DNA of 64,000 nucleotides from the NCBI GenBank assembly GCA_006503475.1, contig RSEH01000006.1, positions 186,001 to 250,000 of the forward strand, written 5' to 3'. This DNA comes from Stentor roeselii. Its lineage: Eukaryota > Ciliophora > Heterotrichea > Heterotrichida > Stentoridae. The translations under genes and the position numbers were made by a program. Of the stretch, positions 8,869-59,100 are shown piece by piece. Positions within the stretch are counted from its first letter, which is position 1. Every line of letters begins with the position of its first letter. The notes beneath the pieces are model-generated. The model made no database searches and was not told the origin of the DNA. It saw only the letters and a program-made list of their open reading frames with translations.

Positions 8869-11860
8869 ATGGATCCATTCCAGTACCAAGAACTCGAAAA
8901 TCTAAAAGATCTCTTTTACAACGCTCCAGACGAAAAAGTAACAAAAATTCAGACCAGAAAACTTTCAGAAGGTAAACTTTTTTCCTTCTTCGACAGTCCC
9001 GAAAATTTCCAATCAATTCTAATCCTATCCCTTCGAAGTACATCTCCAGAGCTTCAATTTTTATCATTAAAGTCAATAAAAACTCACTTAAGCCAGAAAT
9101 GGAAGTCATTATCGATATCAGACCAGTCCTCCCTCTTCAAAGAGTTTTTCAATTCAATTTTCTTGACGACATCAGTCACTCCGAACTACACCCTGATCGG
9201 CAAATGCAAAATTCTTGCAAATATCTGCCGATTGGGTTGGAATCAGTTTATTCAAAGCGCAGCTTTGTTAGAACAAGTGACAACTCTCGCTTACAACGAC
9301 CGTTCAAAGCTCCTGCCATCACTTTTCCTCTTCCAAGAGCTGATAAACGAGATGAGTCAACCAACTAAATACAGATCTTTGCCAGTAAAGAGAAAATTCG
9401 TCACAAATTTTCAGGAAAATATGTTGGGAGGAATTTTCTTGTTTTTAGTTGAACTTCTGAGAAGTTTTCTAAGTTTGCAAGAAAATGAATTGGAAAATTT
9501 GATGGATTTGGCAATTTCTGTTCTTTCTTTCGGGTTTGATGTTGTTTTGGATGAGGGATGTGAGATAGAGTCACGAATTTCAAACATGTGGAAAGTTATG
9601 TATGAAGAAATTTTGAAGTTTATTGATAAGGTGCTGTTTAGTGTTACTTGTTCTGATGTTATTGAAACTAAAGCAGTGGTGCTTTTGGGATGTTTAGGAA
9701 AAGTGAAAAATCTTATGTTAAGTGGGCAGATCTCTAACTTTATTGATAGTTATTTGAAGATTTCCTTCAATATTTTTCGATTAAAAACCTTCACAGGTGA
9801 CAAATTGACTGAATTTGTAAAAGGAGTCAAGATGTTCATTGAAACTTTTGAAGTGCAGAGTGTAGGTAAAAGTCCATATTTCAATGAATGGATTCAAAGT
9901 CTTCATGAGTTCAGTCTTCGACTTTTCCAGTCCTCAGATGCGATTTATTCCCAGTACAACAGTTCGATGATTATCTGGAACCTGATCTCAAATGAAGCGA
10001 ATTCGATCCAATCCCAAAGCATCTCTCTGATAATCTCTTCATTATTCAAGCCATTCATAGCTTCAACCCTTTCAAATTCCAGTCCATCCCTTCTTCTCGA
10101 CAACCTAGAGCCATTAAAAGACCACTTAGACCTAATCTCCAGTTTCAGTCTTTACTTTTCCTCTGAATTTCTCCAAATCCTTTTAGAATTCTTCTCATTC
10201 GTCTTAGAAACCTGGTCAAAATCAAGAACATCTGAATCAGAAAGCCAGCTTGCCTGGCTTTTATTCCTTTCCTCATCATTTCTAACATACAAGGCAACAA
10301 AGTCTTCAATAGACCAGAACAGTTTCATCCTTCAACAAGTTTTATACATAATTCAAAACTTAGACCCTTCTGAAGTATGTTTGGCAGTGGCCAGTACGAA
10401 CTATCTGACGATTTATTCAAAACTTTGGGTAAATGTTGCTGAGGACAACTTTGGAGACTCATCAGAAGACAACGATTCAAGTGAGTCGCCGTTGAAGGTG
10501 CTTGACAAGATTGTTTTGTTTATTTTTAAAGAGATGCAGTTTAACTCACATCCAGTGGTCATCAATTGGGTGCTCGACCTGTTTGAATACCTGGCGAAAG
10601 GTCACTATTCGGCGAAGGTCTTGATGCAGGTTAACACGATTCAGGACTTTTCTTATAATTTTCTTAACTACCCGCTTTGTTTGCATGACTCGAAACTTAG
10701 GGCTAAAGTTTTTCATGTCTTGGCTTCACTTTGGATTCATGAACAGAACACTGAAGGACTTGACTCATTGCTGGCTCCTTATGAACTGGCTTTTAATAGG
10801 AATGAACAAAGACAACCTCAGTATTTTGAGTTCTTGTTTAGAGAAATTCAAGGAATTTGTAGCGCGATTAACACCCAAAGTCACTTTTTCACCTGGTTTA
10901 TTGATAGGGCTGAGTTTTTCGTTGGGGTTTGTCAGGAGTTTTTTTTGGAAGATAGAACTTTTACGGCATTTTTGAAGATGATGCAGGAAATCACTGATGT
11001 TAGGGGAAATCGAATTGTTTTTAATGAAAATTCAGCTTATGGAGTTATCATGTTTAAAAAAATAGCACCTTTGATTACCAGGTATTCACAATTTTTAGCG
11101 AATAAAAATAGAGAAATCAGTAATTTTCTAGGAAAATCAAAGAGAATTGTAGGGATTATGAAAAATTTCTTGATTGGAGGTTATGTTTGTTTTGGAGTTT
11201 TCCAGGTGTTTAATGATTCCACTTTCCTAGATTCAATCAACGCGACTTTTACTCTGATCTCAAAACTATCATATTCTGAAATCACAGTATTTTTAAATAG
11301 ATTTACTCAAAACTTCTAGACAATATTTTCGATTACTTCGAAGCACTTACCAAGAATCATTCACCCTTGCTTCTCTCTCTTTCAAACCCCAACACTCTAA
11401 ACCTAATACTGCAGTATTTAAAAAGTGGAATAAAATCTTCAAGTAAATTTATTTAGACCTAAAAACCTGCCACTCCTCATCAAAATCCCTAACATCACTA
11501 TGCGAAGAACTAATAAAACTATTAAACCATTCCCAAGACTCTGATCTTTTATTTTCAAGCTTAAATCTCTCTGAAATGACTGAAATAGTTTTAGATACCG
11601 TATTAGTCGAAGAGTCAAATTTTCTATGGTCCTTAAAAATTCCTCTGATGGGTTTAATCATCTTGAGTCAAGGTTCGTTCAAAGAAATCTGCTCAAAAGT
11701 AATAAGCCGTGTGAGTTTTTCTGATGATTTCAAAGCTGAGATAATGACTTGTTTAGAAAACCTGATGCTAGGAGTTGAAAGAAACATGAAAGAAAAGAAC
11801 CAGGCAGTTTTCTCAAAGAACTTTTCACTTCTGAAGAACTTGCTAGACACCTCTCACTAA
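8869..11860 (+). CDS. XPO7: Exportin-7 (RanBP16), importin-beta superfamily
   Basis: 987 residues from three exons; introns at 11287-11300 (GTATTTTTAAATAG) and 11443-11456 (GTAAATTTATTTAG), each 14 nt. The N-terminus has the L-E-N-L...L-F-Y-N start and the G-K-C-K-I-L-A...L-G-W segment of exportin-7. The C-terminal exons give YSKLLDNIF, a P-L-M-G-L-I-I-L block, and E-N-L-M-L-G-V-E-R-N-M, matching vertebrate XPO7 (PLLGLILL, ENLMEGIERN) in order and spacing. Without splicing, the first frame stops at 11319 and the conserved C-terminus is lost. Exportin-7 is a RanGTP-dependent nuclear transport receptor built of HEAT repeats, working at the nuclear pore. Human XPO7 is about 1,087 residues, so this copy is slightly short. 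Confidence 0.9.
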
Positions 11861-11875
11861 CTACCAATACACTAC

Positions 11876-12736
11876 TTAATGAATATACACTTGCCTAATC
11901 CTCGCGATTTCATCGAGTTTTTTCTGTTCAAGTTCGAAACAGAAGTCATGAATTTCCTGGTTCATTGAAATTTCCATTTGTTTCACGATTTCCAAGATAA
12001 TAGGACTGTTTCCCATTTCAAGTATTTCCTGCATCTGAACGTTGTAATTCCGCCTGATCTCTGAGACCTTCGATGTTTTTTCATCCATGTATTTTTCCAT
12101 TAGTTCGATGAGTCCATCTTGATACCTGTCGCGTCCTGCGCTTTTATCACCTTCAGGGCGACTGGTGAGGGTATTTCTTCTCAAACTCTTGCGAGCCTTG
12201 ATCTTTTCTTCAATGCCTTCTTCTTGAACCCTGATGTTGACCAGCGCGTGTTGCGTCGCGTTGAGACTTTCAGAACAATTGTCGTTTATATGCTTTTCCG
12301 CGGTTTTTAGACAATGATTCTTGATGCCTCTTCTTGGGGCGATGTTCTGGTCAGATTCACATCTTTCGAAAGGGTTTTTTTGTTCTTCTTGAGGTTCAGG
12401 AAGGACGTTTGTGGACTCTGATGATTTTAAATGGTTTAAGGCTATTGATGTCAACGGCGCTCGACGATTGAAAGGCTTTGAAGACGCGTTTAAGACTTTT
12501 TGGACGGAATCTTGAAGGAGTAAAGACTTTAAACGGCTGTGGTAGGCTTTGTATTTGTTGTCTTTTATTGACTCGTAGTACTCGATTGCTCGCTATGTGA
12601 AAAGTACTGAGTAAAGACTCACTAACTCACGGATTGACTCAATTGTGCAGGATTTTTCTAAACCCATTTCGAGGTCTAATAAGGATTCAGCGAATGTTTC
12701 TGAGTTTGGGAAAGTTATCTCGTGATTTTCATCCAT
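11876..12736 (-). CDS. Hypothetical helical protein
   Basis: 281 residues after splicing a 15-nt intron at 12593-12607 (GTACTTTTCACATAG) that holds the only stop between the two coding stretches. The N-terminal 90 residues are helical, with a segment A-I-E-Y-Y-E-S-I-K-D-N-K-Y-K-A-Y that looks like a TPR- or MIT-like hairpin. The middle is polar and charged, and the last 90 residues form a probable coiled coil. I do not recognise the family. The ATG at 12736 follows GAATATAAA; a nearer upstream ATG opens only five codons. The 3' end lies 15 nt from the convergent exportin-7 stop. Confidence 0.65.
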
Positions 12737-38857: not shown

Positions 38858-39217
38858 ATGACTTTATTTGAAAAATATGGAGGAGTCGATTTCTGGATAG
38901 ATCTTATAAATGAATTCTACTCAGAAGTCATAAAATCACCAATTCTCTCTCACCACTTCGAAACAAAAGACATGGAAAGTATAAAAAACATGATCCTCGG
39001 AATAATCCAATCAACTTTCACAGTGCAAGGCGAGTCCGAGTTAGACTTCGTGCGTCAAAGTCACAAGCACCTTTCAATATCCAACCAAGATTTCAACGAA
39101 TGGATTACTTTATACACTCAAGTCCTCGAAAGAAACAAAGTCTCTAAATCAGACCAGCTTCGTTTATTAGAAGTAATGGAGAACTTCCGTCTTTATTTAG
39201 TAACTAACCGTTCATAA
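38858..39217 (+). CDS. Truncated haemoglobin (2-on-2 globin)
   Basis: 119 residues, the normal size of group I-type truncated globins. It starts T-L-F-E-K-Y-G-G, the conserved opening (L-Y-E-K-x-G-G), with F-Y at residues 20-21 (the B9-B10 pair; Tyr21 is the usual distal ligand stabiliser), and the proximal heme histidine His69 in S-H-K-H-L-S-I-S-N-Q-D-F. Ciliates (Paramecium, Tetrahymena) were the first eukaryotes shown to have these oxygen- and NO-binding proteins. No targeting signal. The start follows CCTTATAAAAA. Its stop is 18 nt before the next ATG. Confidence 0.9.
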   Translation: MTLFEKYGGVDFWIDLINEFYSEVIKSPILSHHFETKDMESIKNMILGIIQSTFTVQGESELDFVRQSHKHLSISNQDFNEWITLYTQVLERNKVSKSDQLRLLEVMENFRLYLVTNRS

Positions 39218-58254: not shown

Positions 58255-59100
58255 ATGTGCAATGAGGATGAGAGATTCAAAGTGATTCATGATGTTTTGG
58301 TTTATTGCTCTATTCCTTCTGGAATCGCTTGTCTTTTCATGATATTCGCTTATTTGAAGGTCAGGGTGTTGCAAAGTTTTTCATTGAAAATAGTGTTTTG
58401 GATGTCGGTGAATGATTTGGTTAGGAATGCTTTTTATGTTTTGCCTTTGAAATATTTGGAAAATGAGAATATTTGTGTTTTGTATGGAGTTGTTATTAAT
58501 ACAGCTTTGACTAATAATGCGATTTGGGCAGTTTTTATTGTGATTTCTTTGTACCAGGTTATTTTTTCTTATGATAGAAATGTTGAGGTTTATTTTAAGT
58601 ATGCTCTTTTGATTACTTTTGGAGTTATTCCGATCTTGAATGTGCTGCCAATTTTTACTAAGAGTTATGGGTTTAATTATGGAATTTGTACTTTTAAAAC
58701 TGATTTAGGTGGAATTATATGGAGATCTATTCAGGAAGGGATTATTATCATTACAATTATTTTTAGTCTTGTGATGTATTCTGTTATATATATAAAGCAA
58801 AGACGATTCCAAATGCTGACAATAAAAGAAGTAATCTTTGACAAAGGCATGATTTTTGTGATAATCACATCTGTAACAGTAACTTTTCTTATTCTATTTC
58901 GATACTTAGAAATTTCCTATGATATATGTCAAATCTATGAATTTGGAATATTATCTTCTTCTGCAGTTTCACTTCACGGTTTTCTAAACTTTTTAGCTGT
59001 AATGGGTAACTCAAGCATCCGAAGAGCAGTGACTGATTCCTTACATAGCCGACCATCAATAGACGAAAAGGGACTTTTCGAAGTAATAACCCGAAACTAG
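58255..59100 (+). CDS. Seven-helix receptor, cAMP-receptor-like (class E type) GPCR
   Basis: 281 residues with seven hydrophobic segments at about 13-33, 43-62, 74-97, 113-133, 150-173, 196-218 and 231-252. A cysteine at about position 73 in the first outer loop and another in the second outer loop (G-I-C-T-F) could form the usual disulphide. The last helix is followed by a short Arg/Ser-rich tail (S-S-I-R-R-A-V-T-D-S-L), a phosphorylation-type tail. The overall look is that of Dictyostelium cAMP-receptor-like proteins. The stop TAG shares the palindrome CTAG with the stop of LTV1 on the other strand. Confidence 0.7.
   Translation: MCNEDERFKVIHDVLVYCSIPSGIACLFMIFAYLKVRVLQSFSLKIVFWMSVNDLVRNAFYVLPLKYLENENICVLYGVVINTALTNNAIWAVFIVISLYQVIFSYDRNVEVYFKYALLITFGVIPILNVLPIFTKSYGFNYGICTFKTDLGGIIWRSIQEGIIIITIIFSLVMYSVIYIKQRRFQMLTIKEVIFDKGMIFVIITSVTVTFLILFRYLEISYDICQIYEFGILSSSAVSLHGFLNFLAVMGNSSIRRAVTDSLHSRPSIDEKGLFEVITRN

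Follow-up and report, generated by a model that had tools for sequence, protein, structure and literature searches.

How short a spliceosomal intron can be is a question raised by one gene of Stentor roeselii, in which two intervals of only 14 nt appear to interrupt the coding sequence. The lower size limit of introns is set by spliceosome geometry, because a single active site has to accommodate both splice sites, 5′ and 3′, together with the branch helix. The gene lies in a window of 64,000 nucleotides (bases 186001–250000 of contig C495, which has 266,565 bases), and the assembly searched comprised 44.4 Mb in 522 contigs. A preliminary description of the window had reported two 14-nt GT...AG intervals, at 11287–11300 and 11443–11456, and both read exactly so. 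It took them for introns, with a homopolymer error in each as the alternative. Neither tRNAs nor Rfam matches were found in the window.

The exportin-7-like gene occupies positions 8869–11860 of the forward strand, with three exons that together encode 987 codons plus a stop. Exon 1 (8869..11286, 806 codons) is an open frame with homology to Stentor coeruleus SteCoe_9623 and a weak Pfam TPR_XPO7 match. It is followed by candidate intron 1 (11287..11300, GTATTTTTAAATAG, phase 0), exon 2 (11301..11442, 142 nt), candidate intron 2 (11443..11456, GTAAATTTATTTAG, phase 1) and exon 3 (11457..11860), which is open up to its TAA stop. The exons stand in three different frames, the frame step being identical at both intron sites, and deletion of 14+14 nt joins them into a single open frame. 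Both introns have GT..AG ends, a GTA start, a pyrimidine-AG end and an A that precedes the 3′ splice site by 5 nt and, at position 9, would be the branch A. Their length of 14 nt lies outside the 15 or 16 nt of heterotrich-type introns.

Intron boundaries were scored by enumerating GT..AG removals of 8–60 nt at each site. This gave 4 and 7 choices including none, and each of the 28 resulting pairs was translated and scored against the S. coeruleus protein SteCoe_9623 (P0001). The 14+14 pair obtained the top score of 531 (runner-up 489), and the best seven pairs all contained the 14-nt intron 1. The spliced protein aligns to P0001 without a gap across either junction, exon 2 included. Removal thus restores the exportin-7 C-terminus, as had been claimed, and the reading with best support is one with two 14-nt introns in the exportin-7-like gene.

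P0001 (1003 aa, UniRef name Exportin-7/Ran-binding protein 17) was the sole named homologue in a protein search with three matches. The alignment to this annotated Exportin-7/RanBP17 member spans the whole length, with 37% identity at E=5e-59 over residues 700–987. The name exportin-7-like was chosen because TPR_XPO7 scored 21 bits, under its curated cut-off of 27 (E=2e-4, exon 1 only), and a PDB search with the protein gave no match at E≤0.001. A non-standard genetic code was rejected, since the spliced frame contains no in-frame stop. All three standard stops serve in a rough test, and a trained gene finder resorted to stop read-through once on a piece of contig C137 and never on C495. A retained germline insertion (IES) was also rejected as improbable, given that both intervals have GT..AG ends and that a paralogue carries 15-nt introns at the same places.

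Intron lengths were surveyed with a codon-based gene finder that reads both strands, accepts introns of any phase and allows frameshifts and stop read-through at a cost. A motif-free run, with lengths 9–40 weighted equally and only GT and AG required, covered 260,000 of the 266,565 bases of C495. It called 98 introns. Of these, 26 were 15 nt long and 4 were 14 nt long, and the remaining 68 were spread over other lengths (at most 5 per length). The four 14-nt calls were the two exportin-7-like introns and two others, and all four started with GTA and carried TA at −7/−6 and a pyrimidine at −3. Among the 68 calls of neither 14 nor 15 nt, a GTA start was seen in 20 and A at −6 in 29. The A at −6 was present in 21/26 of the motif-free 15-nt calls and in 39/41 of the 15-nt calls after motif training. 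The latter run, trained on the 15-nt set, called 68 introns on C495; 41 were 15 nt long, 5 were 14 nt and 3 were 16 nt, and no other length had more than 3.

Support for single introns was expressed as the score loss, in nats, when that intron is forbidden, and amounted to 7.9 for intron 1 and 8.6 for intron 2 of the exportin-7-like gene. At support ≥5 nats, C495 held 27 introns of 15 nt, 4 of 14 nt and none of any other length; at ≥3, one 20-nt intron joined this set. The fifth 14-nt call (C495:9569-9582) had a support of 1.3, and the 12-, 13-, 16- and 18-nt calls on C495 (8/68) were all at or below 1.7. A 50 kb piece of C137 yielded 9 introns, and those at support ≥5 were three 15-nt introns and one 14-nt intron (GTATCTTTAAACAG, 5.7). 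With reversed or reverse-complemented decoy motifs, no intron of 10–20 nt reached a support of 3 on the C495 and C137 pieces; 8 longer introns did, two of them, both 38 nt, at ≥5. A 13-nt candidate from the motif-free run (C495:25460-25472) was dropped, as the trained model favours a 28-nt same-frame alternative (support 1.6). At this site (C495:25460-25487) the frame of a long gene, presumably kinase-like from its translation, shifts in a way that would fit 13, 16 or 28 nt; alternatively, two neighbouring genes meet here.

For the window itself, the preliminary description had counted 12 other introns of exactly 15 nt. This was nearly reproduced: 11 introns of 15 nt were called, along with 4 longer, doubtful ones of 27–31 nt (window 12593-12622, 39173-39200, 58771-58797 and 58879-58909). 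In the motif-free run, the end of the first of these, GTACTTTTCACATAG, had been called as a 15-nt intron.

Other candidate 14-nt introns were called in further genes on gene-finder support, in some cases with homology fit. They lie at C495:102003-102016, C495:170350-170363 and C137:104981-104994, and in loci L003, L008, L049, L061, L065, L066 and L069. The 14-mer GTATTTTTAAATAG has 8 genomic places, one of which is intron 1. Four of the other 7 were called as introns (support 5.9 in L003, 2.6 in L005, 4.2 in L006 and 7.0 in L008) and 3 were uncalled. For the motif GTAWWNNTANNYAG, which has 630 places, the first 40 of 100 listed were examined, each within 150 bases of flanking sequence either way (one was cut short by a contig end). 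Eight were called as introns, 5 of them above support 5, one at 3.9 and two at ≤1.2, and 32 were uncalled. The 13-nt analogue of this motif, a small control, was called at 1 of 8 places with a support of 1.2. Since the places were chosen by motif, these results show recurrence and not frequency.

Homology was used to place several of these introns. The segment C495:170253-170737 aligns without a gap to human U11/U12-35K (8r7n_C) over 131 residues (E=2.8e-30) after removal of two introns, one of 14 nt (GTAAAATTAAATAG) and the other of 15 nt. Among 90 removal pairs at this locus the best scored 288, the next, with the same intron 1, 279, and the best with another intron 1 267. In L069 (OXA1L-like), removal of 14 nt scored 92 against 80 for the next choice and 49 unspliced; in L049 (RRM) the corresponding scores were 95, 85 and 72. 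The case of L061 (CDC50-like), where the PDB match starts at the junction, is weak because 14 nt scored 130 against 124 unspliced. Pfam searches with six spliced pieces placed RRM_1 and CDC50 above cut-off and 60KD_IMP below it, with a weak match only for L039 and none for L065 and L066. The latter two are gene-finder calls with a support above 7 each, and L065 gave no match in PDB either. At L003, a further read-through of 14 nt was looked for among proteins, and none was found. As a separate observation, the U11/U12-35K-like gene, which lies on C495 outside the window at lower contig coordinates, encodes by its best PDB match a minor-spliceosome protein.

The size of the 14-nt class was estimated from whole-genome counts of spaced motifs. 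At 13, 14, 15, 16 and 17 nt, GTAAG..TANNYAG occurred 82, 93, 1112, 77 and 97 times, and GTAWW..TANNYAG 593, 630, 2172, 498 and 577 times. The GTAAG form shows no 14-nt excess to speak of genome-wide, and neither form shows an excess at 16 nt. For the GTAWW form, the excess is ~1600 at 15 nt and, at 14 nt, ~53 over the 17-nt count or 74 over the mean of 13/16/17, with a Poisson error near 30. A reversed-pattern control was unusable as a baseline, as it gave more hits than the forward motif at all lengths except 15. Taken by itself the count test is weak: such counts bound the 14-nt class but do not prove it. Scaling of the 40-place sample gives ~80–125 14-nt introns in the GTAWW class. By rough estimate, 14-nt introns may thus form ~3–8% of the GTAWW class and ~2–5% of all introns. 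The genome-wide excess is small, and the 4/31 found on C495 therefore overstates the class.

Related sequences bear on the length of the two exportin-7-like introns. A DNA search of the assembly returned one other match, C171:61964-62063, which belongs to a second exportin-7-like paralogue (L030, C171:60464-63563) with 15-nt introns at both homologous places. Read by eye against the Stentor protein, the 15-nt GTAATTTTTAGAAAG lies between ...EIM and TYVKLLD, and the 15-nt GTAACTAATACCTAG between ...SSN and MKHC. The gene finder called the second of these with a support of 1.0 and left the first uncalled. No in-frame stop interrupts the first, so that translation could continue across it, and this would add five residues absent from Stentor. 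Intron position is conserved in this paralogue at both places and, judging from its protein end, in P0003 at intron 1. P0003 is 78% identical over the matched part and ends in EILVYFK at the intron 1 place. A stop codon following it starts with T, so AG cannot sit at 13–14; if the next codon is a stop, 15 nt (GTA TAY TTY AAR TAG) would fit, 16 would be possible and 14 would not. Judged from one paralogue and one relative, 15 nt is likely ancestral at both places, with 14 nt derived.

A more direct indication comes from P0002, a JGI-sourced protein of 816 aa that is a read-through of the window DNA bar residue 623 (I to M), one difference in 816. It ends in SEITVFLNRFTQNF, which corresponds to the 14-nt intron 1 plus the next exon in the unspliced frame. 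The 15-nt version of intron 1, GTATTTTTTAAATAG, would stop the read-through after four residues. The tail of P0002 continues beyond that point, and intron 1 is therefore 14 nt long in a second, non-identical and perhaps independent sequence. P0002 points to a true length at intron 1 and against a homopolymer error there. P0004 is identical to the window gene within exon 3 from its first Met onward. Because this start is a Met inside the exon, P0004 gives no measure of intron 2 length; it fits a 14-nt intron 2 but is not decisive. The longest contig is 17,469 bases for P0002 and P0004 alike.

If both introns were truly 15 nt, assembly or sequencing would have dropped one A/T-run base in each, which we consider improbable. 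The idea draws on the facts that GTATTTTTTAAATAG, which is intron 1 plus one T, was called as a 15-nt intron on C495, that this 15-mer was found three times among the 100 places listed for 15-nt GTAWW..TANNYAG, and that these places hold at least 15 nt in the paralogue and in the relative P0003. However, P0002, which carries its own substitution, shows the identical 14-nt read-through at intron 1, and 14-nt introns with no run above 4 exist, such as GTAAAAGTAATTAG and GTATCTTTAAACAG. Base loss is also rare where it can be counted. On C495 the trained model has 6 frameshifts, of which 3 are of the one-base-deletion type, in 203,100 exonic bases holding 5178 A/T runs ≥4 and 2182 runs ≥5, although this count comes from the same gene finder, where a split gene or a long intron call could hide errors. 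The 41 15-nt introns hold 15 A/T runs ≥4 and 6 runs ≥5. Four deletions in 615 (generously 2250) intron bases compare with the 3 exonic ones at Fisher p 3e-9 to 5e-7, and with all 6 exonic frameshifts at 2e-8 to 3e-6, values that are flattered since the window was picked for holding two 14-nt introns. Without these two, two 14-nt introns remain on C495 and one on C137. The homopolymer error offered in the preliminary description is thus contradicted for intron 1 by P0002, and is unlikely for both introns because the exonic indel rate is very low and 14-nt introns recur elsewhere.

The intervals could also be real in DNA but poorly or never spliced, in a paralogue that is decaying or regulated by retention and nonsense-mediated decay. 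With a second exportin-7-like paralogue carrying 15-nt introns this copy might be spared, retention of 14 nt, not a multiple of three, would break the frame, and both such introns sit within one gene. Against this, the frame stays open over its 987 codons and can be aligned to Stentor through to the end, and the 14-nt length recurs in conserved genes (U11/U12-35K-like and OXA1-like). We rate poor splicing as improbable as the dropped-base account. Far less probable still is programmed ribosomal frameshifting across each site without splicing. The shared frame step would suit it, but homologues fit best with the whole 14 nt removed and no extra residues, and the GT..AG ends, the T at −7 and A at −6, and the paralogue's 15-nt introns at the same places are those of introns.

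Both intervals are hence, with high probability, true spliceosomal introns (U2-type-like) of 14 nt, a minority class in a genome overwhelmingly of 15-nt introns. Their removal from mRNA is what we infer from sequence, with A9 as the putative branch point. Most likely, 14-nt introns originate by one-base deletion from 15-nt introns, as a rule within the A/T-rich segment that separates the 5′ splice site from the branch A. The distance from branch A to 3′ splice site would be kept at 5 nt, and the loop from 5′ splice site to branch would shrink from 10 to 9 nt. The spliceosome may tolerate 14 nt because the former distance stays at 5 nt. All five 14-nt introns of C495 and C137 above support 5 are A/T rich behind GTA and none begins with GTAAG; this A/T richness fits a base loss from an A/T run, which we offer as a suggestion. 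A true 14-nt class would move the lower intron size limit, and would suggest that the spacing from 5′ splice site to branch gives way and that from branch to 3′ splice site does not. Annotation that fixes heterotrich introns at 15–16 nt would render such genes frameshifted.

Tiny introns call for caution: in Arabidopsis, none of the predicted introns ≤30 bp was confirmed when tested (PMC6161759). In the literature searched, no ciliate intron below 15 nt is named, and published data may hold an unnoticed 14-nt tail. Annotated S. coeruleus introns are of 15 nt in 8173/8806 cases and of 16 nt in 633/8806, with an A at position 10 of 15 or 11 of 16 that is described as the branch point (PMC9505925). 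The introns analyzed here resemble them in their GT..AG ends, GTA start, A/T richness and in an almost invariant A that lies 5 nt before the 3′ end (PMC9505925). They differ in that S. coeruleus has 7% 16-nt introns (PMC9505925), whereas here 14 nt occurs and the motif counts show no 16-nt excess. The S. coeruleus authors conjecture that splicing is mainly by the major spliceosome (PMC9505925).

Blepharisma stoltei is similar in having a compact somatic genome (41 Mb) with introns predominantly of 15 and 16 bp, but its UGA encodes tryptophan (PMC9942806), whereas the present genome is read with three standard stops. The available text on B. stoltei makes no mention of a 14-nt class (PMC9942806). 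Ultra-short introns, identified by RNA-seq with a mapper minimum of 10, also occur in Loxodes magnus, a karyorelict from the sister group; in contrast, their mode is 17 bp and those below 16 are negligible (PMC11441545). Heterotrich introns are given there as ~95% of 15 bp, the remainder being 16 bp (PMC11441545). The 15–16 nt on record for heterotrichs is consistent with the claim that introns of 14 nt would go below the published limit (PMC9505925, PMC9942806, PMC11441545). With their predicted lariat loop of 9 nt, the 14-nt introns are probably the shortest natural spliceosomal introns known to us, and the minimum would then not be fixed at 15 nt.
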